A stretch of DNA of 64,000 nt from positions 62,001-126,000 of the forward strand of contig CP051243.1 of assembly GCA_017795025.1 (NCBI GenBank). The letters are read 5' to 3'. The notes under the pieces are model-generated. The model made no database searches, was not told the DNA's origin, and saw only the letters and a list, made by a program, of their open reading frames with translations. The DNA is from Flavobacteriales bacterium (lineage in GTDB: Bacteria; Bacteroidota; Bacteroidia; Flavobacteriales; Schleiferiaceae). A program made the position numbers and the translations under genes. This document shows, piece by piece, positions 1 to 10,154 of the stretch; within the stretch, counting starts at the first letter, position 1, and each line of letters opens with the position of its first letter.

Positions 1-10
1 TTTGTTTTGC

Positions 11-2113
11 ATGTCAATCTTAAGCACAGCCATAGAATATTTAAAAGGGGTGGGTCCCGCTAAGGCTGATCTTTTGAAAAAGGAGCTGAAGATTTTTCGC
101 TATGCTGATCTGGTGCAACTTTACCCTTATCGCTATGTAGACCGCAGCCGCTTTTACCGCATCAATGAGATTGGTGGTACTTCCACCGAGGTCCAGGTAA
201 AAGGGAAAATCACTCATCTAGAAACAGTTGCGGGCAAGGGCAGAAGTAAGCGACTGCGTGCTATTTTTCAAGATGATACCGGGGAGGTGGAATTGGTTTG
301 GTTTAAAGGCGCACAATGGATTCAGAAATCGCTGAAGCTTCAGCAGCCTTATGTGCTTTATGGTAAGCCTAACTTTTTTAATGGGAGTTTGAGCTTTCCC
401 CATCCCGAACTGGAATTGGAGGCCGACTTCAAGCAAAGTCCCTTAAGAGGTTTGCAGCCGCTCTACCCCAGTACCGAAAAGCTTAATCAAAAGGGTTTAA
501 ACAATCGAGGCTTCGCCAAATTAACCCGAGCCTTATTACCGCAATTAAAAGGACAGTTTCCCGATTTTTTCCCTGCTCATTTTCGGGAGCGCTATCAGCT
601 AATGCCCCGCGAGGAGGCCCTTTTTCAAATTCACTTCCCTAGCAGTTTAGAGTTGGCGGAGGCTGCCCGAAACCGTCTAAAATTTGAGGAGCTCTTTTTC
701 TTTCAAATGGAAATGGCGGCGCAAAAGCGCAAGCATCATCGCGAGTTTAAAAGTTTCGCTTTCGCAGATGTAGGACCTGTTTTTCATCGCTTTTACGATT
801 CGGTTTTGCCTTTTGAATTAACCGGTGCGCAAAAAAGAGTACTGCGGGAGATTCGTCAGGATATGCGCCACGGTAAGCACATGAACCGTTTACTACAGGG
901 CGATGTGGGTTCGGGAAAAACTATGGTTGCCCTTATGGCGATGTTAATGGCCATTGATAATGGCTTTCAGGCCTGTTTAATGGCTCCAACCGAAATTTTG
1001 GCGCAACAGCATTATCAAGGGATTTCCGAATTAGTGGAAAGCCTACCGGTTGAGGTGTCCCTATTAACCGGTTCCGTAAAAACAGCCCAACGCAAGGATA
1101 TCCACGAAAAGCTTCGCGATGGTAGCCTACATATCTTAATAGGTACACATGCGCTGCTGGAAGATAAGGTGAAATACAAAAACCTCGGCTTGGCTGTGGT
1201 AGATGAACAACATCGGTTTGGAGTGGCCCAAAGAGCGAAACTTTGGAAGAAGAACACCCTGCCTCCGCATATTTTGGTGATGACCGCCACTCCTATACCT
1301 CGCACCTTAGCAATGAGTATTTATGGAAACCTCGACCTTTCGGTGATTGATGAATTGCCTCCAGGAAGGAAGCCAATTTCTACTCGGCACGCTTTCGATA
1401 AGGACCGTAACAGCCTATTCGGTTTCTTGGAAAAAGAAATTGACAAAGGGCGACAAGTCTATATCGTTTATCCGCTTATTGAAGAGTCGGAAAAAATGGA
1501 TTACAAGGATTTAATGGATGGCTACGAGAGTATTTGTCGCGCCTTCCCCCGGCCTAAGTATCAGGTAAGTGTGGTGCACGGAAAAATGAAGCCCGAGGAT
1601 AAAGACTTCGAAATGCAGCGTTTTGCTTCGGGTAAAACCCAAATTATGGTGGCCACCACCGTAATTGAAGTGGGGGTAAATGTTCCCAATGCATCAGTGA
1701 TGGTAATCGAATCAGCAGAGCGCTTTGGGCTGAGTCAGTTGCATCAATTAAGAGGTAGAGTAGGCCGTGGGGCCGAGAAAAGTTACTGTATCCTAATGAC
1801 GGGCTCTAAGCTTAGTCGGGAGGCCAAGATTCGCATGAAAACCATCGTCCGCACTCAGGATGGCTTTGAGATTGCGGATGTGGATTTGAAGTTAAGAGGC
1901 CCTGGCGATTTGATGGGCACCCAGCAAAGTGGAATGCTTAATTTACGTTTAGCCGATTTGCGTAATGATAGCCCTATCATGGATTTATCGCGCCGGGCAC
2001 TTCAAGATTTATTGGATGCAGATCCCTCCTTGGAAAAGCCTGATCATCAGCATATTTTAGCGGAATTTCAAAAACGAAAAGCGGGTAAAATAGACTGGGG
2101 ACGCATTGCCTAA
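11..2113 (+). CDS. recG: ATP-dependent DNA helicase RecG
   Basis: RecG is a monomeric superfamily 2 helicase that remodels stalled replication forks and branch-migrates Holliday junctions. The 700-residue product has the family's usual length. An N-terminal wedge/OB region is followed by a motor with Walker A GDVGSGKT near residue 297, a DEQH Walker B box near 398, and the motif VI region QLRGRVGRG; a C-terminal RecG block follows. I chose ATG at 11 because the product then begins MSILSTAIEYLKGVGP, the usual RecG N-terminus; a TTG three codons earlier would only add three residues. The upstream promoter lies outside the window. The next gene starts 73 bp downstream on the same strand. Confidence 0.96.
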   Translation: MSILSTAIEYLKGVGPAKADLLKKELKIFRYADLVQLYPYRYVDRSRFYRINEIGGTSTEVQVKGKITHLETVAGKGRSKRLRAIFQDDTGEVELVWFKGAQWIQKSLKLQQPYVLYGKPNFFNGSLSFPHPELELEADFKQSPLRGLQPLYPSTEKLNQKGLNNRGFAKLTRALLPQLKGQFPDFFPAHFRERYQLMPREEALFQIHFPSSLELAEAARNRLKFEELFFFQMEMAAQKRKHHREFKSFAFADVGPVFHRFYDSVLPFELTGAQKRVLREIRQDMRHGKHMNRLLQGDVGSGKTMVALMAMLMAIDNGFQACLMAPTEILAQQHYQGISELVESLPVEVSLLTGSVKTAQRKDIHEKLRDGSLHILIGTHALLEDKVKYKNLGLAVVDEQHRFGVAQRAKLWKKNTLPPHILVMTATPIPRTLAMSIYGNLDLSVIDELPPGRKPISTRHAFDKDRNSLFGFLEKEIDKGRQVYIVYPLIEESEKMDYKDLMDGYESICRAFPRPKYQVSVVHGKMKPEDKDFEMQRFASGKTQIMVATTVIEVGVNVPNASVMVIESAERFGLSQLHQLRGRVGRGAEKSYCILMTGSKLSREAKIRMKTIVRTQDGFEIADVDLKLRGPGDLMGTQQSGMLNLRLADLRNDSPIMDLSRRALQDLLDADPSLEKPDHQHILAEFQKRKAGKIDWGRIA

Positions 2114-2186
2114 GCGGCGCAAGAACTACTTTGGCACGATATTTCTAATTCTAAAAGCAAACGAATACGAACTTAAAACCGACATC

Positions 2187-2732
2187 ATGAAAAAATTACT
2201 GTCACTCTTCATCGGCCTTGGCTTAGCATCTTGTACTTACAACAGCGACGTACCAGGCCCTCCCGGACCACAAGGCCCTCCCGGAGCTGGATTAAGTTAT
2301 CGTATCATTGATGCTACTGCTCTCTACGAAAACTGGTTGCCCTTTAACAATGTGGGAGACCCCGATTTTCAATACTACCAAGAGTTTAATGCTCCCGAAA
2401 TTGATCAGTTCACCTTCGACAATGGTATCATTATCGGTTATCAAATAGATAATGGAACCACCTACACTTTACCAAACACCATTAACTTTAATGGTTACAC
2501 CCGCGAGTTTAGCATGTATTACGGAGTAGGTTACGTAGGTTTCATCGTTAAAGACTCAGATCTACAAACCACTCCTCCAGATGTAGATCAGTTTTTTAAA
2601 GTGTACATCATAAACCCGAGTAGCGGCAAACGCGACTTGAGAAGTATGTCTCAAATAGAATTGGAGTTGTACCTTCGTGAAATGAAGGCCGAAGGATCGG
2701 CCCGTGAGATTAAGCTGACTCGAAAAAAATGA
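2187..2732 (+). CDS. Collagen-like small lipoprotein
   Basis: A 181-residue exported protein of unknown function. From ATG 2187 it begins MKKLLSLFIGLGLASC, a typical lipoprotein signal with the acceptor cysteine at residue 16. A short collagen-type Gly-X-Y stretch (GPPGPQGPPGAG) follows directly and then a globular beta-rich domain. Very short collagen-like segments just behind the lipobox are common in Flavobacteriia lipoproteins; they are too short for a stable triple helix and may act as a spacer from the membrane. An in-frame start at 2106 exists but would bury the signal peptide. The stop overlaps the next start (ATGA at 2729), so translation of the two may be coupled. A strong terminator follows at once (2756-2788). 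Confidence 0.8.
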   Translation: MKKLLSLFIGLGLASCTYNSDVPGPPGPQGPPGAGLSYRIIDATALYENWLPFNNVGDPDFQYYQEFNAPEIDQFTFDNGIIIGYQIDNGTTYTLPNTINFNGYTREFSMYYGVGYVGFIVKDSDLQTTPPDVDQFFKVYIINPSSGKRDLRSMSQIELELYLREMKAEGSAREIKLTRKK

Positions 2733-5077
2733 CCTTAAATAAGTGCTCTTTATATAGACCGATGTTTCTAAGCATCGGTCTTTTTTTTGTTTTAAATACT
2801 GGGCAGGCGCAGGATTTCTTGCGCTTAGACCTTAAGGCTCGCTTCGATACCGTAGCGGAAGAGGTGATTGGGGAGGTGCGGCATCAGTTCATCTTTCCTG
2901 ATACGATGGATAGCATAATGCTTAATGCCGTGCGCATTGAAGTAGAGGAATTACTTCTGAACGGCAAGGAGGTGGACTATACTCAAAATGATACGGCCCT
3001 TTTTATCCCGGTGCAATACACGGGAAAGGCTCAGGAACTCTGGATATCCTATCGCGCCAAGCCACGAAAAGGCATCTATTTTATTGGTTGGCAGGACGAA
3101 ACACGTAGAGCCCCGCGCCAAATTTGGACCCAAGGGCAGGGTATTGATCATCGACATTGGATTCCTCATCGTGATGATCAAACGGATAAAGTGTTGTTTT
3201 CGGTCGAGTGGATTTTTAATGAGGACTATCAAGCCATGAGTAATGGTACCTTAGATTCTGTTGTTTCTAAGGATGGAGAAAACCATTGGTTTTACCATAT
3301 GGAAAAGCCTATGAGCTCCTACCTGATTGCTTTAGCCCTTGGCAAGTATGTGGCAAGTTCACAGATGGTTAAAGGAACCCCCCATTTACTCTATCACTAT
3401 CCGGAGCGAATTCAGGATAGCGCATGGTATTACTATCGGCACCACCGCATTGCCCAGTTTTTAGAGGAAGAGATTAACTACGATTATCCCTGGCCCAATT
3501 ACAAGCAAGCTCCGGTTATGGATTTTCGTCACGGGGCAATGGAAAATACCTGCGCCACCATTTTTGGCGACTTCTTTTTAGTGGATTCGGTGGCCTTTAA
3601 TGATCGCAATTACACTTACGTAGATGCGCATGAATTTGCCCACCAATGGTTTGGGAACTTGGTCACGGCTGCGGGTCCTGAGCACCACTGGCTGCATGAA
3701 GGCTTCGCAACGTATTATCAATGGCTTTCTGAACGAGAATTGTACGGACAAGGGCGCTTTGATTGGGAATTGCAAAAGGCGAAGGAATTGGTTTTTGCCG
3801 CTTCCGAACGAGATACTTTTCCCTTGGCTCATCCCAAAGCAGGAGTGGAGCGCTTTTACCAAAAAGGAGGCTGGCTCCTACACATGTTAAGGAATTACGT
3901 GGGCGATTCCATATACCGAAAGGTGATTGATGAGTACTTGAATACCTATGCCTTCAAAGTGGTTAAGAATGAAGACTTAATTCGACTTTTCAAAAAGCAT
4001 AGCGACAAGGATATTGAGGGCTTTTTTGAAGCTTGGCTTTACGGTAATCGAGAACCCGAGCTAACCATCCGACGCAGTCCATTGTCGCCCGAATTGATTA
4101 TTGACATGGATCTAGCATTTCCACAAGCTGTGCAAATAGGCTTCTATATTGGTAAAGGATGGAGTGTTATTCAGGAATTTAAGCTTAAGGAAGGCCGCAA
4201 TCGAATTCCGATGCCCGATTCGGTAGAGGGTTATTTTGTGGCCAATGCCAGTGATTTGCTAATTAAGCTTAATCGAGACTACCGCTTAGAAGAATTAAAG
4301 GTCCTGCTAGAGATTGATCAAAATCCCTGGAACCGAAACCATTACTTTAGGAATTGGCCTAAAGGTGAAGAGGCTGATACCTATTTGCTTTCTCTATTAA
4401 AACGTCCTGCAGGTTTTTACAGTGAACACAATATTGGGCCGGCGCTTGAGGCCTATTCCGAAAGGCATAAGGACGAAAAAGGGGCTCTTACCGATATCTA
4501 CGAGCAGCAATTAAAACGCCAGCCGAGCATTGAGGCGCAAAAATCTATTTTGGGTTTGGCCTTAAAGTATGAGCTCGACTTGGATAAAACCATGCTCGAA
4601 GAACTTAGGGAAAGGGGGATGAGTTATGAACTGCGAGCTTTAGCATTGCAAAACAGCCTTGATCCGCGTAATCCTTCGGAGATGACTTGGTTAAAGGATG
4701 CGCATTGGGAGGCCCAGCCGGGAATTGTGGGGCGCGATGTATACCTACAAACCCTAATCTACAGAACCGCCTTTTTACGCGATCAAGCGGCCAAGGCGCA
4801 GTTAATGGATTTCTGTAGTATTTCTTTCGACTTCCAAACTCGTATGAATGCGATAACTTATCTAGCGCTTCTATCTCCCGATGAGGAGGAGTTTTGGCAG
4901 CAATTATTTATGGGCTTCCAGGATTCAAATTGGAAATTGGTTAAACTCTCCCGGGAAACCCTTCTTGCTATGCGTGAGAAATATCCTAAATCGTTTAAGC
5001 GACAATACAAGAAGGCACAAAGGAATTGGGACGACTTTCAAAAACGCAAAGCAGCGCGTACCTTTGAGGACGACTAA
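2729..5077 (+). CDS. M1 family zinc aminopeptidase, exported
   Basis: A 782-residue exported metallopeptidase of the M1 (aminopeptidase N/leukotriene A4 hydrolase) family. The zinc site HEFAH (about residue 301) is followed by exactly 18 residues and then the third ligand Glu (LHEGFATYY). The exopeptidase motif GAMEN lies near 269. The C-terminal third looks helical, like the HEAT-type tail of the family. The N-terminus from 2729 (MTLNKCSLYRPMFLSIGLFFVLNTGQA) has charged residues before a hydrophobic core, which favours this start over ATG 2762; it also gives a 4-bp overlap with the lipoprotein gene. The oddity is that the upstream gene's intrinsic terminator lies inside codons 10-20, so the U-tract encodes part of the signal peptide. 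Likely role: peptide degradation outside the inner membrane. Confidence 0.9.
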   Translation: MTLNKCSLYRPMFLSIGLFFVLNTGQAQDFLRLDLKARFDTVAEEVIGEVRHQFIFPDTMDSIMLNAVRIEVEELLLNGKEVDYTQNDTALFIPVQYTGKAQELWISYRAKPRKGIYFIGWQDETRRAPRQIWTQGQGIDHRHWIPHRDDQTDKVLFSVEWIFNEDYQAMSNGTLDSVVSKDGENHWFYHMEKPMSSYLIALALGKYVASSQMVKGTPHLLYHYPERIQDSAWYYYRHHRIAQFLEEEINYDYPWPNYKQAPVMDFRHGAMENTCATIFGDFFLVDSVAFNDRNYTYVDAHEFAHQWFGNLVTAAGPEHHWLHEGFATYYQWLSERELYGQGRFDWELQKAKELVFAASERDTFPLAHPKAGVERFYQKGGWLLHMLRNYVGDSIYRKVIDEYLNTYAFKVVKNEDLIRLFKKHSDKDIEGFFEAWLYGNREPELTIRRSPLSPELIIDMDLAFPQAVQIGFYIGKGWSVIQEFKLKEGRNRIPMPDSVEGYFVANASDLLIKLNRDYRLEELKVLLEIDQNPWNRNHYFRNWPKGEEADTYLLSLLKRPAGFYSEHNIGPALEAYSERHKDEKGALTDIYEQQLKRQPSIEAQKSILGLALKYELDLDKTMLEELRERGMSYELRALALQNSLDPRNPSEMTWLKDAHWEAQPGIVGRDVYLQTLIYRTAFLRDQAAKAQLMDFCSISFDFQTRMNAITYLALLSPDEEEFWQQLFMGFQDSNWKLVKLSRETLLAMREKYPKSFKRQYKKAQRNWDDFQKRKAARTFEDD
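2756..2788 (+). terminator. Intrinsic terminator inside the M1 peptidase start
   Basis: A perfect 9-bp stem AGACCGATG (2756-2764) / CATCGGTCT (2773-2781) with an 8-nt loop, running into eight T (2781-2788). It should end transcription of the collagen-like lipoprotein gene, but it lies within the coding frame of the peptidase that starts at 2729. ATG 2762 is part of the hairpin. Confidence 0.85.
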
Positions 5078-5079
5078 GT

Positions 5080-6435
5080 ATGCCGGCCTACCACAACAGA
5101 TTAAGCCAGTTTTTGGTGCTTTTAGGGGACTTATTGCTCCTCAACCTTTCCTTTTTTGGTGCGGCCTGGCAACGTTTCGCCGACCTCCCTTTTTTTAACA
5201 CTCCTTACTACGATTATTACGTTCAGTTGTGGCTCATCCTAAATTTGCTGTGGTTGGTGCTTAGCCTATTATTTCGAACTTACGATTCGGCTTTAAAGCC
5301 CGAACCCCGCCAATCCGTAGCCAAAACCTTAAATGTTTTTAGCAGTCACCTTTTCATTGTTCTCTTATTATTGGTAGCCTTACAAAGAGGGGAGCAGTAC
5401 AGCCGATTATTCTTCATTTATTTCTACAGCGGAGTATTTGTAACCATCATCCCCTGGCATTTTCTGTACTTACGTTTTTTACGTTCCTTCCGCAGAAGAG
5501 CACGACCGCTCCGCAATGTTTTGCTCATTGGTGAAGGTCGTGCCTTCGAAGACTTCATTCAGTTAATTGCTCGAAATCCGGAATTGGGGATAGCCATCGA
5601 ACGAAGCTTTAAACTCGGTAGCGAACACGAAGACCTGAGGCCAGTTGAGGAGTACTTAAAAACAAGTGAGAGCGAGGAGATATTTGTCGCTCTTAATCCA
5701 GATCATCCTCAGTTTAGCGCGCTTTATCGCTTAGCCGATCAATACCTCTTACACTTTAGGGCATTACCCGATTTAGGGATGCCCCCCATGAAAAGTTTGC
5801 AGATTGATTTTTACGAGCAATTACCCGTTCTGAGTTTTCGTCCGGAGCCTTTACAACAATGGCATAATCGCTGGATTAAGCGAGCCAGTGACCTTCTTAT
5901 TTCCGCAAGCTTAATACTAATTTGCCTCCCCACTTTATTTCCTTTAATAGCATTAGGGGTGAAACTATCTGGGAAAGGCCCTATTTTTTTTAAGCAGCGG
6001 CGCAGCGGCTATCGAGGCGAGGAATTTACCATCTACAAGTTTCGCAGTATGGTGCTTAATGAAGCGGCGGATCAGGATCAGGCGAAGGCCAATGACCATC
6101 GGATTACCCCATTTGGAAAATGGATTCGCAGCTGGCATCTGGATGAGCTTCCCCAATTATTCCAGGTTCTTAATGGCGAAATGTCCTTGGTGGGTCCCCG
6201 TCCACATATGCTGGCCCATACCGAAGAATATCGAGATTTAGTGGATCGCTATATGCTCCGTCACTTAGTGAAGCCCGGACTCACCGGTTTGGCGCAGGTG
6301 CAAGGATATAAAGGGGCACACGATTTAGCTGCTATGGAAGCCCGCGTTCGCGCAGATGTTTATTACCTCCAAAATTGGAGCTTGATTTTTGACTTGAGCA
6401 TAATCTTGCGCACGCTGGCTAGCTGGCGAAGCTAG
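5080..6435 (+). CDS. Undecaprenyl-phosphate sugar-1-phosphate transferase (WcaJ type)
   Basis: A polyprenyl glycosylphosphotransferase of 451 residues that would start repeat-unit synthesis of an exopolysaccharide by moving a hexose-1-phosphate from a nucleotide sugar to undecaprenyl phosphate in the inner membrane. The N-terminal half has four hydrophobic segments (about 10-130) and a CoA-binding-like cytoplasmic domain. The C-terminal bacterial sugar transferase domain (about 260-451) shows the family signatures KRASDLL, GPIFFKQ.R.G, FTIYKFRSM, LDELPQL.QVLNGEMSLVGPRP and KPGLTGLAQV. It starts two bases after the peptidase stop with no promoter between, so it is probably co-transcribed. The two glycosyltransferases at 7.4-9.6 kb on the opposite strand may work on the same polymer; the sugar is not predictable. 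Confidence 0.9.
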   Translation: MPAYHNRLSQFLVLLGDLLLLNLSFFGAAWQRFADLPFFNTPYYDYYVQLWLILNLLWLVLSLLFRTYDSALKPEPRQSVAKTLNVFSSHLFIVLLLLVALQRGEQYSRLFFIYFYSGVFVTIIPWHFLYLRFLRSFRRRARPLRNVLLIGEGRAFEDFIQLIARNPELGIAIERSFKLGSEHEDLRPVEEYLKTSESEEIFVALNPDHPQFSALYRLADQYLLHFRALPDLGMPPMKSLQIDFYEQLPVLSFRPEPLQQWHNRWIKRASDLLISASLILICLPTLFPLIALGVKLSGKGPIFFKQRRSGYRGEEFTIYKFRSMVLNEAADQDQAKANDHRITPFGKWIRSWHLDELPQLFQVLNGEMSLVGPRPHMLAHTEEYRDLVDRYMLRHLVKPGLTGLAQVQGYKGAHDLAAMEARVRADVYYLQNWSLIFDLSIILRTLASWRS

Positions 6436-6439
6436 GGGT

Positions 6440-6469
6440 AAAAAAAAGCCGGACAATAGGTTCCGGCTT
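6440..6469 (-). terminator. Intrinsic terminator of the DUF2892 gene
   Basis: On the minus strand, an 8-bp stem AAGCCGGA/TCCGGCTT (6469-6462 with 6453-6446) runs into a tract of eight T (6447-6440). It lies just downstream of the DUF2892 gene. The T-tract orientation shows that it serves the minus strand and not the sugar transferase. Confidence 0.8.
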
Positions 6470-6492
6470 CGAGTGGGTTTCAAGGATTCTTC

Positions 6493-6696
6493 TTACGAAG
6501 TTTTGCAGGTTTTAATACCAAAAATGGTATACAAGGGACAAAAGCTTACAATGCTGGTGAGTAGGAATACCCCTGCCAATACCAACAATACAATGCCTAG
6601 GGTTCCGGAGATAATTCCGTCGTAATATAAATAAGCTACAACAGCAGCAATTAGAATTCGGATTATGCGGTCGGCGCCGCCCATATTTACTTTCAT
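6493..6696 (-). CDS. DUF2892 (YgaP-like) small membrane protein
   Basis: A 67-residue inner-membrane protein with two hydrophobic helices (about 10-30 and 33-52). It has the DUF2892 pattern: MGGADRIIRILIA at the start, then L..G..LL.S..SFCPLYTIFGI near the end. Family members are often fused or adjacent to rhodanese domains and sit beside Crp/Fnr regulators, as here. The molecular role is not established; a link to sulfur or redox stress is inferred from neighbours elsewhere. A terminator follows at 6440-6469. Confidence 0.85.
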   Translation of the reverse strand: MKVNMGGADRIIRILIAAVVAYLYYDGIISGTLGIVLLVLAGVFLLTSIVSFCPLYTIFGIKTCKTS

Positions 6697-6766
6697 GTTA
6701 TTATCGGTTTATGATTGATACTTCGAAAGTAAGATGTCCAATTAAGCTATGCAGTAACTCCGGTTA

Positions 6767-7396
6767 CTAGCTTAAAACTTTAATGCCTGCTTTGCCTTGT
6801 TCAATCTTACCCTCGTTTTCCAGTTTCTTAATTACTCGACTCACCACTTCACGTGCCGTGCCAAGGTCTTGCGCGATTTCCCGATGGGTTTTGCGAAAGG
6901 GGTTTCCGGCATGGGCCTGAGCCTTGTCTTTTAAGTATTCGTGTAGCCGCTGGTCCATCTTGCCAAAGAGCAAGGATTCTATGGTTTGCAGTAGCTCGCC
7001 GTAACGCATTTGATATTGATCAAAGAATAGCTTGTTAAACTCTGGGTAATCGTTGGTCCAACGAACTACCGCCTCACTGGGCAGGAGTAGAATCTCACTG
7101 TCCTTTTCGGTGATGGCTTTAATCTTACTGGGGGCATTTTGCAAAATAGCGGAGAAAGACATGGCGCAAGACTGACTGGGTCGGATATGATATAAAAGCA
7201 ATTCGCGATCTTCAAAATCGGCCATCACTTTTACACTTCCCGTGATGACCACAGGAATCACTTTTACGTACTGTCCTTCGCGCAATAATTCGGTTCCTTG
7301 AGCGTAACTGGCAAAAGTTCCGTCATGTGCAAAAGCGGCTATCAATTCGGGATTTAAGCTCGGAAAAGAGCTTTTGAGATGTTGGTGGAGGTTCAT
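6767..7396 (-). CDS. Crp/Fnr family transcriptional regulator
   Basis: A 209-residue regulator with an N-terminal cyclic-nucleotide-binding-like beta barrel (about 25-115), a dimerisation helix and a C-terminal winged helix with the Crp signature THREIAQDLGTAREVVSRVIKKLENEG (two pieces: THREIAQDLG and TAREVVSRVIKKLE). The Fnr-type N-terminal cysteine cluster is absent, so it does not look like an iron-sulfur oxygen sensor. The cAMP-contacting residues of Crp are not clearly conserved, so the ligand is unknown. It is read toward the DUF2892 gene, 70 bp away, and probably controls it and other targets. Confidence 0.88.
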   Translation of the reverse strand: MNLHQHLKSSFPSLNPELIAAFAHDGTFASYAQGTELLREGQYVKVIPVVITGSVKVMADFEDRELLLYHIRPSQSCAMSFSAILQNAPSKIKAITEKDSEILLLPSEAVVRWTNDYPEFNKLFFDQYQMRYGELLQTIESLLFGKMDQRLHEYLKDKAQAHAGNPFRKTHREIAQDLGTAREVVSRVIKKLENEGKIEQGKAGIKVLS

Positions 7397-7445
7397 TGTT
7401 TGGCTTTAATTATAAAGTTAACAAATAGGCCTCAAATAGAAGGAT

Positions 7446-8546
7446 TTAAGTCTTTTTTCGTATCAATCCTTGTTGCAGGGTAATTTCGTATTCTTCCGCG
7501 ATTAATTGCCAGTTGTAGCGCTCTTCAATCTTGTGGCGGTTCTTTTGTTGCCTTTCCAGGTGCACACTGCGCTCCTCCTGGTGATCGATGTGATTGGCCA
7601 CATCAACGGGGTCGTTAAAGTAATAGGCGTTTTCGCCCAATACTTCATAATTAAAGCGATTGCGATGCGCCACAATTGAGCAACCACAAGCCATAGCCTC
7701 CAATAGGCTGGGATTGGTGCCCCCTACGCTATGACCGTGAAAATAAAGTCGAGCGTAGAAGCGAAGGTTATTGATCTTTTCCTTTTTGTAGGTACCGCGC
7801 ACAAAACGTATCCGAGCATCTTTAAATTTCGACTTCAAGTATTCTCCATAAGGGGTGTCGTGGTTCCCGACCACCAACATAATATCTTGTCGCTCACTGT
7901 GCACCACACCATTGAGGATGATTTCAATGTTGTTTTCAGGTTCCAAGCGAGCTACTAGTAAATTATACTTGCCCGCTTCCAGGCCATAGGACTCCAAAAT
8001 ACTGGGGTCTCCTTTCTTAAATGGTTGGGCTCCATAGGGGATAAAAACGGTGTCGGTAGGGTATTGAGCTTCGAGGTACTCTTGAATAACCTTAGAATCG
8101 GCAATCAGGATATCACTCCTTTTGGCCGCCCAAGCTTCGGCGTATTTTAAAAATTTCTGTACCCTCGGTTTATATTTAGATCGGCGCCATTCGAGGCCAT
8201 CCATATTGTTGAGGATGAGTGATTTACTTGGTAGCAATCGTTGCCAAATGCTGCTGCTGGTGTAGCCTAATAAGATAATCGCTTCAAAGTCACGCTTGCG
8301 ACTGTCGATAATACAATTGAGGTCGTAGATAAACTGACCAAAGGTGCCAAAACGATGTTCGGGGTCGTATTTATGGATAATTTCTATTCCCTCAAATTGC
8401 TTTTGCTCATAAGGGTGGCGGTGGGAGCTGTACACAAAAACTTGATGCCCCATACTAACAAGATGGCGGCCTAAATGCTGAGCACACTCTTCAAAGCCCC
8501 CGTATAAGTTGGGGATTCCTCTTGTCCCGATGATGCCAATTTTCAT
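7446..8546 (-). CDS. GT4 glycosyltransferase with DUF1972 N-terminal domain
   Basis: A 366-residue glycosyltransferase of GT-B fold. The N-terminal half matches the DUF1972 family (rhamnosyltransferase WchF/Cps2T-like): MKIGIIGTRGIPNLYGGFEE, with the glycine loop for the nucleotide sugar. The C-terminal half has the GT4 motif GGTNPSLLEAMACG, whose Glu contacts the donor sugar. Cytoplasmic; probably adds a sugar to a lipid-linked exopolysaccharide unit. Its start overlaps the stop of the upstream glycosyltransferase (8543) by four bases, so the two are translationally coupled. The sugar specificity is inferred only from the family. Confidence 0.88.
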   Translation of the reverse strand: MKIGIIGTRGIPNLYGGFEECAQHLGRHLVSMGHQVFVYSSHRHPYEQKQFEGIEIIHKYDPEHRFGTFGQFIYDLNCIIDSRKRDFEAIILLGYTSSSIWQRLLPSKSLILNNMDGLEWRRSKYKPRVQKFLKYAEAWAAKRSDILIADSKVIQEYLEAQYPTDTVFIPYGAQPFKKGDPSILESYGLEAGKYNLLVARLEPENNIEIILNGVVHSERQDIMLVVGNHDTPYGEYLKSKFKDARIRFVRGTYKKEKINNLRFYARLYFHGHSVGGTNPSLLEAMACGCSIVAHRNRFNYEVLGENAYYFNDPVDVANHIDHQEERSVHLERQQKNRHKIEERYNWQLIAEEYEITLQQGLIRKKT

Positions 8547-9610
8547 GCGCGGGAAGTTAAAACCTTTCGGTAGATGGCTAATATCTTATGGGCGGCATCG
8601 GCCCAGCTAAAGTGGTCGTGCAACCATTTACGGTGATCTTCTTGAGCCTCTAGAGCCTTTTGGATAGCTTCCCGAATGGAGTCCGCCTTTTCTACATTCG
8701 CGTAAAAAGCCTTGTCGCCAAACAACTCCCTTGCAATAGGGTGATTATTAACGACTATTTGGCAACCAAAATGAAGGGCCTCTAGGCTAGCGAGGCCGGT
8801 GCTTTCGTAATGGCTCGGTAAAACGTGGACCTTAGCTTTGTTGTACATAGAGGCACATTCTTCGTGATTGCGATCGGCGTGAAACAACACCTTAGGTCCG
8901 GCCAAGGATTTACAGTGCTTAAGGTAGCCTTGATGGGCAGGTGCCGCATCTCCCACTAAATGAAGTTTCCAGCTACTGCCGGTTTGGGCCTCAATGAGCT
9001 TGGCTTGATTTTTAAGGGGTTCGATACGTGCTACACAGAGGACATCCTTCTTTTCTTGCGCAGGGTTTAAAGGCGGTAGATGTTCGGTACCCAGTCGAAT
9101 CACTTTATGGTTTCCGGCAAAAGGATATTCTTTAACAATAAGTCCTAGCTCACTTTCAGACGCAGTGATGAGGTAATCACAACGATCCAAAATTTTGCGG
9201 ATGCTGCCGCTCTGACCTTCTAGGAGGTAGGAAATTCCTGGCCAGGCATCGCGCCCCTTTAAAGCTCGGGCAATTAGCTTGAGGTATTCGAGGCCGTTTT
9301 GACCGATGAGTTGCTGCAGTCGGGCTCTTAAACGAGAGGCCTTGCGATCGGCAATGGAATAATCTACGTAAATGCTCGAAACAATAATCGGAAGCTCCGA
9401 TTTTAAAAGGGGAATCAGCGCGGCCGGGCGGGTGAGGCCATAAAAATGAATAAGGTCGAATTCTGCTAAATCCTGGCTGCCGTCCCATAAACTGGTGCTC
9501 ACCCCGTTCTTTTGCAGGTAAACCCGGTTTTGCTGCAGGTGTAGGGTGTCTCCCCCTGGCTGACTTATCAGGTTTGGGCGAGAAACAAATAGAACTCTGG
9601 GACCTTTCAT
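8543..9610 (-). CDS. GT4 family glycosyltransferase
   Basis: A 355-residue GT-B glycosyltransferase. From ATG 9610 it opens MKGPRVLFVSRPNLISQPGGDT, the usual beta1-loop of a GT4 N-terminal domain; an in-frame start at 9676 would add 22 residues not typical of the family and is rejected. The C-terminal domain has LCVARIEPLKNQ and the donor-site block HYESTGLASLEALHFG. The stop overlaps the next gene's start by four bases. Likely function: one sugar transfer in polysaccharide or glycolipid assembly together with its neighbour. Confidence 0.86.
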   Translation of the reverse strand: MKGPRVLFVSRPNLISQPGGDTLHLQQNRVYLQKNGVSTSLWDGSQDLAEFDLIHFYGLTRPAALIPLLKSELPIIVSSIYVDYSIADRKASRLRARLQQLIGQNGLEYLKLIARALKGRDAWPGISYLLEGQSGSIRKILDRCDYLITASESELGLIVKEYPFAGNHKVIRLGTEHLPPLNPAQEKKDVLCVARIEPLKNQAKLIEAQTGSSWKLHLVGDAAPAHQGYLKHCKSLAGPKVLFHADRNHEECASMYNKAKVHVLPSHYESTGLASLEALHFGCQIVVNNHPIARELFGDKAFYANVEKADSIREAIQKALEAQEDHRKWLHDHFSWADAAHKILAIYRKVLTSRA

Positions 9611-9635
9611 TATAAAGTCTAATCTAATCAAAGAA

Positions 9636-10154
9636 TCAGGAACCGGGAACCAGCTTGGCCCGAATTTGTGCGGCAATAATGCCTCCCAGGATACTTTTGA
9701 TGATTAAACCCGGAATAAGGTGGACCAAGGTGCTCCAAAGCTTGGCCCCTGGCAATTGGAAATAGAGCACTAGAAAACCGGGAATCAAAAGGATTAAATG
9801 AGCACGAAGGAAGATAAGCATGCCTCGAAAAAAGTTTAATTCCTCTTTTTCAATGGCATAGGAAACATAGGCGGCGCAAATAACAAAACCCCAAAGGAAG
9901 CCGGCGGTAGCGCCAATAAGTTTTTCCCAACCGTAACTGTGATGACCAAAAACGGGTAAGCCCAATGCGCCTAAAGCCAAATAAATTAGAACAACCCCCA
10001 CAGACCAGCGCCAAGGAAGTAAGCTCGCCCCAATGAAGATCACGAAGGTTTGCAAGGTGAGGGGAATGGGGCCAAGGTCTATGCTCCATGGGGCAAGTAA
10101 AAGAATGGCAATTAAAACGCCTAGACTAATTTTTAGTGGGGATGCTTGCTCCAT
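9636..10154 (-). CDS. bioY: Biotin transporter BioY
   Basis: The substrate-binding S component of an energy-coupling-factor biotin importer. The 172-residue product has five to six hydrophobic segments and the BioY signatures GPIPLTLQTFVIFIGASLL (about 29-47), a P.FG glycine turn near 68, and GATAGFLWGFV near 82, which line the biotin pocket. It starts inside the end of the MATE gene (29-bp overlap). No biotin synthesis genes are in the window, and ECF ATPase components are not nearby, which is normal for group II or solitary BioY. Confidence 0.9.
   Translation of the reverse strand: MEQASPLKISLGVLIAILLLAPWSIDLGPIPLTLQTFVIFIGASLLPWRWSVGVVLIYLALGALGLPVFGHHSYGWEKLIGATAGFLWGFVICAAYVSYAIEKEELNFFRGMLIFLRAHLILLIPGFLVLYFQLPGAKLWSTLVHLIPGLIIKSILGGIIAAQIRAKLVPGS

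Follow-up and report, generated by a model that had tools for sequence, protein, structure and literature searches.

A predicted lipoprotein-gene terminator within the signal-peptide codons of an overlapping M1-family peptidase gene in Flavobacteriales

Introduction

What can a transcription terminator do when the next gene has already begun on the stop codon before it? The question is raised by a locus of a Flavobacteriales bacterium (source genome G000), in which the hairpin and T run that follow a collagen-like lipoprotein gene lie inside the first codons of an exported peptidase. The window analysed was the whole stretch of 64,000 nucleotides at G000:C1:62001-126000, and positions are those of the window unless a locus is named. 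The locus was compared with those of six further genomes of the genus (G001-G006), and a second case of the same kind, in lptC, was followed through the order.

Results

Layout of the locus

The genes on the + strand stand in the order recG, lipoprotein gene (lp), M1-family peptidase gene and sugar transferase gene. The features are as follows.

2131..2140, + strand: TTGGCACGAT element, 5' of lp
2187..2732, + strand: collagen-like lipoprotein gene lp, with a GPPGPQGPPGAG stretch and, by inspection, the lipobox LASC
2729..2732, + strand: ATGA stop/start overlap, A-rich immediately 5' of the ATG
2729..5077, + strand: exported M1-family peptidase gene of 782 codons (PF01433, 8.6e-36; PF17900, 2.9e-12)
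2756..2781, + strand: predicted terminator stem-loop, arms 2756-2766 and 2771-2781, in peptidase codons 10-18
2781..2788, + strand: run of eight T, encoding Leu-Phe-Phe of the signal peptide; predicted RNA 3' end
5080..6435, + strand: bacterial sugar transferase gene (PF02397, 5.6e-62), 2 nt past the peptidase stop

The lp product had no match in Pfam or NCBIfam at E 0.001, and an orthologue of lp was found in all seven genus genomes. As the original prediction had it, the peptidase ATG overlaps the lipoprotein stop: ATGA at 2729-2732 comprises the lp stop TGA (2730-2732) and the peptidase ATG (2729-2731). The signal peptide of the peptidase was placed by inspection at about residues 1-28. Since the gap between the peptidase stop and the transferase gene is only 2 nt, the sugar transferase gene also lies downstream of the lp terminator. 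The TTGGCACGAT element, found by eye in the seven genus genomes with small changes, resembles a sigma-54 -24 element, and a clear -12 GC is absent. A plasmid origin of the locus was considered and rejected, as the stretch 2000-3500 gave no plasmid match.

The hairpin within the peptidase codons

The stem-loop reads AGACCGATGTT-TCTA-AGCATCGGTCT (2756-2781). Its predicted stem consists of nine perfect pairs and two weaker inner ones, 11 pairs in all, closed by a loop of four bases. Hairpin and T run together encode residues 10-20, RPMFLSIGLFF, which form the core of the signal peptide. The perfect 9-bp stem and eight T that had been predicted within codons 10-20 were confirmed on recounting, with the T run at 2781-2788 and the codon numbers right. 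With its stable, G+C-containing stem and a T tract directly 3', the site has the make-up of an intrinsic terminator. No separate short ORF precedes it, and the frame across the hairpin is that of the 782-codon peptidase itself.

The 41 nt at 2750-2790 folded with -15.7 kcal/mol, compared with -3.6 ± 1.9 kcal/mol in 200 dinucleotide shuffles (z -6.4), none of which was as stable. The whole fold of a longer piece, 2690-2800, did not stand out (z -1.4, equalled by 18 of 200 shuffles), and longer folds of 111-131 nt from G000, G001 and G005 were no stabler than shuffles, with z of -1.4, -1.0 and -1.8, respectively; the stem was retained in all of them. When residues 7-21 were recoded synonymously 20,000 times, 178 of the resulting sequences reached -15 kcal/mol or better and 245 reached -10 kcal/mol with at least seven T.

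A consensus scan of positions 1-10000 returned 15 terminator-like sites, compared with 12.0 expected by chance. The hairpin at 2756-2781 had the most pairs and was the only such site on the + strand between 2100 and 3500, which agrees with the earlier claim that it is the only strong terminator of lp. When the genome was searched with the stem pattern at up to two mismatches, this site alone was found, while a reversed control pattern gave three matches. A repeated terminator element was ruled out, the stem pattern occurring once in the genome. At the gathering score, Rfam 15 gave no matches in positions 1-8000 of the window or in five lptC loci.

Spacing and rarity of such terminators

The survey of G000 covered 864 kb, made up of the window and 800 kb of samples (L150-L189), with crude, ATG-only ORF calls. 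Thirty-six strict terminators lay within 200 nt past a same-strand stop, at a median distance of 23 nt, and the lp terminator, 23 nt past its stop, stands exactly at this median. The spacing in the same 864 kb peaked at 20-26 nt (21 of 36), an observation that bears on transcription-translation coupling in Bacteroidota.

Altogether 51 strict terminator-like sites were found in the 864 kb: 44 were intergenic, one was antisense to an ORF, three fell within the opening 90 nt of an ORF on the same strand (among 703 crude ORFs) and three lay further in. The early three are the M1 peptidase, lptC and a flavin reductase gene. A 400-kb sample of G005 yielded 49 strict sites, 47 intergenic and two antisense, with none in same-strand ORFs; none of the 317 ORFs of that sample carried a strict terminator in the first 90 nt.

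A looser energy screen was applied to 1,081 ORF starts in the G000 and G005 samples, with 300 recodings for each hairpin at -9 kcal/mol or below. Seven cases had the smallest p, including the M1 peptidase and lptC, and most of the remaining ones had broken stems or poor T tracts. The flavin reductase gene (L152:15966-16619) directly follows an SDR-like gene; in the remaining six genomes of the genus the hairpins at this place were weak or imperfect, and the case was treated as chance. Separately, locus L194 of G005 carries on the - strand (ATG 4523) a signal-peptide hairpin, AAAGCAGATC..GGTCTGCTTT, with no close upstream neighbour called.

Conservation across the genus

A hairpin of -10.3 to -16.8 kcal/mol was present at the same place 3' of lp in all seven genomes, with the stem 10-23 nt from the lp stop. 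In four of them (G000, G001, G005, and G006) the terminator lies in the signal-peptide codons of the peptidase and is accompanied by the ATGA overlap. It is intergenic in the other three, with T7-T9: G002 and G004 have the order lp, terminator, opposite-strand ATP-grasp-like gene and peptidase, and in G003 the terminator sits in a 132-nt gap. The 9-bp stem is identical letter by letter in G001, G005, and G006, whose peptidases share 62, 61, and 45% identity with that of G000, respectively. The loop of G006 is three bases shorter, which keeps the reading frame. The stems of G003 and G004 differ in sequence and use G-U pairs. Since the hairpin follows lp in every arrangement, it belongs to lp, and the peptidase gene has run into it; the original assignment of the hairpin to the lipoprotein gene as its terminator is thus upheld by its retention after lp in seven of seven genomes.

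The codons were then compared at conserved residues within 10-21, Met and Trp excluded. Codons identical to those of G000 numbered 10/11 in G001, 10/11 in G005, and 8/8 in G006, compared with 187/433, 178/424, and 140/318, respectively, elsewhere in the gene (Fisher p 0.0013-0.0017 for each genome), G001 and G005 being near-identical sisters, so that few independent lineages are represented. The corresponding counts in the non-overlapping genomes were 1/4 (G002), 0/3 (G003), and 1/1 (G004). Against synonymous recodings, the hairpin gave p 0.0033-0.010 in the four overlapping peptidase genes. In the peptidase signal peptides of the three non-overlapping genomes it was absent or weak (p 0.86-1), and the seven lp signal peptides gave p 0.096 or more. 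These sequence comparisons indicate that the hairpin codons are conserved beyond the demand of the protein. Absence of the hairpin from relatives had been named beforehand as evidence against the prediction; that objection falls, as hairpin and overlap are conserved jointly, synonymous sites included, in four of seven genomes.

History of the overlap

A concatenated tree was rooted on G013; recG was partial in G002 and missing in G013. The topology was (G006,(G004,((G002,G003),(G000,(G001,G005))))), with a support of 100 at every node, while single-gene trees had weaker support and differed from it in places. On this topology the overlap is present both in the deepest branch (G006) and in the G000 clade, and G004 and G002, which branch between the overlap lineages, share one inserted gene. 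The best fit is either a double, independent origin or a gain that was later lost and regained; the double origin is the likelier history, though not proven. Less probably, the overlap was lost twice and one and the same gene was inserted twice.

The ATP-grasp-like gene (L056:5164-6324 and L058:3547-4695) was found only in G002 and G004 of the seven genus genomes. It falls below NCBIfam cut-offs and is 69% identical between the two. G000, G001, G003, and G005 have only distant paralogues of it, and none was found in G006.

A second case in lptC

L153:3523-4086 (G000:C1:633523), outside the window: lptC (PF06835, TIGR04409)

In G000, lptC starts at a TAATG on the stop of its upstream gene, whose product of about 470 residues had no Pfam or NCBIfam match. 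A terminator-like hairpin begins 27 nt downstream, at a stop-to-stem distance of 26 nt, within the lipoprotein signal peptide, and was found in all seven genus genomes. Of 99 genomes of the order, 96 have lptC, and 70 of these were examined (loci L210-L279). A hairpin of -8 kcal/mol or better ahead of a T-rich tract was present in 55 of the 70, and the hairpin surpassed synonymous recoding in 51 at p ≤ 0.05 and in 44 at p ≤ 0.01. The 15 without it all belong to genomes of at most 2.3 Mb; some hairpin-bearing genomes are equally small. Beyond the order, a hairpin that reached -8 kcal/mol was present in 7 of 20 selected genomes.

For covariation, 26 of the 55 rows (25 distinct) were chosen as alignable. 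Standard pairs made up 97.8% of the pair cells in these rows, and 8 of 11 stem pairs changed on both sides, which was matched in 1 of 500 shuffles. The covariation score was 0.543 compared with 0.263 in shuffles, none of 500 being as high, with the caveat that related rows may exceed shuffles without structure; the recoding test is independent support. The covariation was lost when the partner strand was slid.

The distance from the upstream stop to the stem was 19-36 nt in 47 of 53 cases. Among 46 resolved cases, 37 had their nearest ATG no more than 5 nt from the upstream stop, and 41 had a start-to-stem distance of 22-37 nt. Compared with synonymous codons, the T tract showed no clear enrichment (mean probability 0.32), which speaks against a pure terminator. 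The lptC case is older, stronger, and more widespread than the peptidase case.

Discussion

As judged from sequence, the locus probably, though with some reserve on our part, carries a leaky attenuator between lp and the peptidase gene, with read-through higher when a ribosome starts at 2729. The hairpin is the predicted intrinsic terminator of lp, placed about 23 nt past the stop as is usual in this genome; where the next gene starts on that stop, as in this species and three relatives, the predicted terminator also codes for the peptidase signal peptide. A T run spells Phe and Leu, and a signal peptide can therefore accommodate a terminator. From an arrangement that can be read directly in the DNA, we infer that most lp transcripts would end near 2788 and that a fraction would read into the peptidase and sugar transferase genes. 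The footprint of a ribosome occupying the stop codon would end before the stem, and the lp ribosome, halted at 2732, 23 nt short of the stem, should therefore not melt it. Melting would be expected only from a ribosome that initiates at 2729, provided that it advances four to five codons while the polymerase is still on the T run, and read-through should thus rise with peptidase initiation. Several observations weigh against this reading: such sites are rare in the samples surveyed, few of the lineages that share the overlap are independent, 15 of 70 lptC genes have no such hairpin, the lptC T run shows no clear enrichment, longer folds around the site are no stabler than shuffles, and in E. 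coli translation does little to relieve early-ORF terminators (PMC7858274).

Parts of this scheme have precedents. In frd-ampC of E. coli, the terminator of the upstream operon is the attenuator of the next gene, and nearby ribosome loading is considered to favour read-through; the terminator lies in an untranslated leader and the promoter inside the upstream gene. Here, too, the terminator of an upstream gene lies within the next transcription unit and, as we propose, doubles as the attenuator of the next gene, but it is placed in the signal-peptide codons of an overlapping gene. In leader-peptide attenuation (trp, his, pyrBI), the position of the ribosome on the nascent RNA decides the fate of the terminator, as it would at this locus. 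Unlike those systems, the locus has no separate leader peptide, the translated "leader" being the N-terminus of the regulated protein, and no antiterminator was seen by eye.

Attenuation in trp is also covered in parts of PMC7858274, which state that coupled ribosomes can antiterminate intrinsic terminators. Sections of PMC7815308 and PMC10319736 describe intrinsic terminators and 3' ends within coding regions of E. coli and Borrelia, as here; in contrast to the present case, stop/start overlaps or signal peptides are not described in those sections. According to the available sections of the E. coli study, ends that follow stop codons were dropped, with exceptions, from the list of 5'-UTR and ORF-internal ends (PMC7815308), so terminators embedded in overlaps would mostly have been missed. 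In Flavobacterium psychrophilum, 3'-PT regions represent partial termination after genes (PMC9723704, in part), a likeness in that leaky intrinsic terminators are followed by continued transcription in a flavobacterium; the regions are classed as lying after genes, and the first codons of next genes are not described in that part. Among the open-licence matches listed, judged by title and start of abstract, we recognised no paper that places a terminator within a signal peptide, at a gene overlap or in lptC, and the main text of PMC13323073 contains no word starting with Bacteroid or Flavobacter.

A regulated switch, as first proposed for the locus, in which the translation state of the operon decides the passage of transcription and provides a checkpoint on the exported protease, appears unlikely to us. 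The joint conservation of overlap, spacing and hairpin in four of seven genomes suits it, as does the similar geometry of lptC, with the stem just beyond a ribosome waiting at the stop codon. However, three of seven genomes do not have the arrangement; in these, a gap or a further gene precedes the peptidase gene, which can thus do without gating. No condition or ligand is known, and the sole by-eye candidate for an antiterminator is a 5-bp match further upstream, present in G000, G001, and G005 but not in G006, while the terminator stem persists in the predicted folds of the three genomes folded (G000, G001, and G005). In E. coli, a terminator located within an ORF's first 100 nt reportedly works with nearly 100% efficiency (Li et al., 2015, as presented in part of PMC7858274). 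This weakens the case for a clean translation gate, and for this reason the leaky attenuator is rated likelier than the clean switch.

Retention of the hairpin for an RNA function other than termination, such as mRNA 3'-end stability after processing or ribosome pausing while the nascent signal peptide is exported, we consider quite unlikely. The covariation in lptC supports a paired stem and not termination as such, and the lptC T run, no richer in any clear way than the amino acids alone predict, points in the same direction. Against this, the lp hairpin with T7-T9 is intergenic in three genomes, where a terminator role is natural.

Very unlikely, in our estimate, is a plain, near-complete terminator combined with a peptidase promoter in the AT-rich stretch 2746-2755 and leaderless translation from the ATG at 2762. 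This ATG is in frame and present in all four overlapping genomes, and a TATATA-like stretch lies just 5' of it in the window. However, the product would be without the positive n-region of the signal peptide (by inspection), and the codons before this ATG look used, because residues 1-21 are identical to those of G001 at 20 of 21 positions. No sigma-70-type site was found at 2746-2755 by a scan that does not cover Bacteroidota promoters. A start downstream of the hairpin would, again by inspection, strip the peptidase of its signal peptide.

Chance, by which hydrophobic signal-peptide codons yield T runs next to a random hairpin, is largely refuted: weak hairpins ahead of T-rich codons are common, with dozens at -9 to -13 kcal/mol, but the terminator occurs in seven of seven genomes with the same stem in all four overlaps, and the synonymous-recoding tests oppose it.

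Beyond the leaky attenuator proposed for this locus, we suggest tentatively that signal-peptide-embedded terminators may form a distinct and ancient regulatory class in Flavobacteriales, in which transcription of an export gene would continue only once its own translation has begun. This would be a Rho-free polarity checkpoint that constrains the amino acids of signal peptides. The proposed members are the M1 peptidase gene in this genus and, across much of the order, lptC, whose product belongs to the LPS export machinery. As the lptC stem covaries also at sites where the amino acids differ, the structure of the RNA seems to influence the signal peptide. Studies of 3' ends that discard those following stop codons would not see the arrangement, which offers a natural test of ribosome-polymerase coupling in Bacteroidota. 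The same DNA appears to serve as a stop signal for the polymerase and as an export signal for the protein, both under selection, and this suggests a mode of export-gene control that has drawn little notice.
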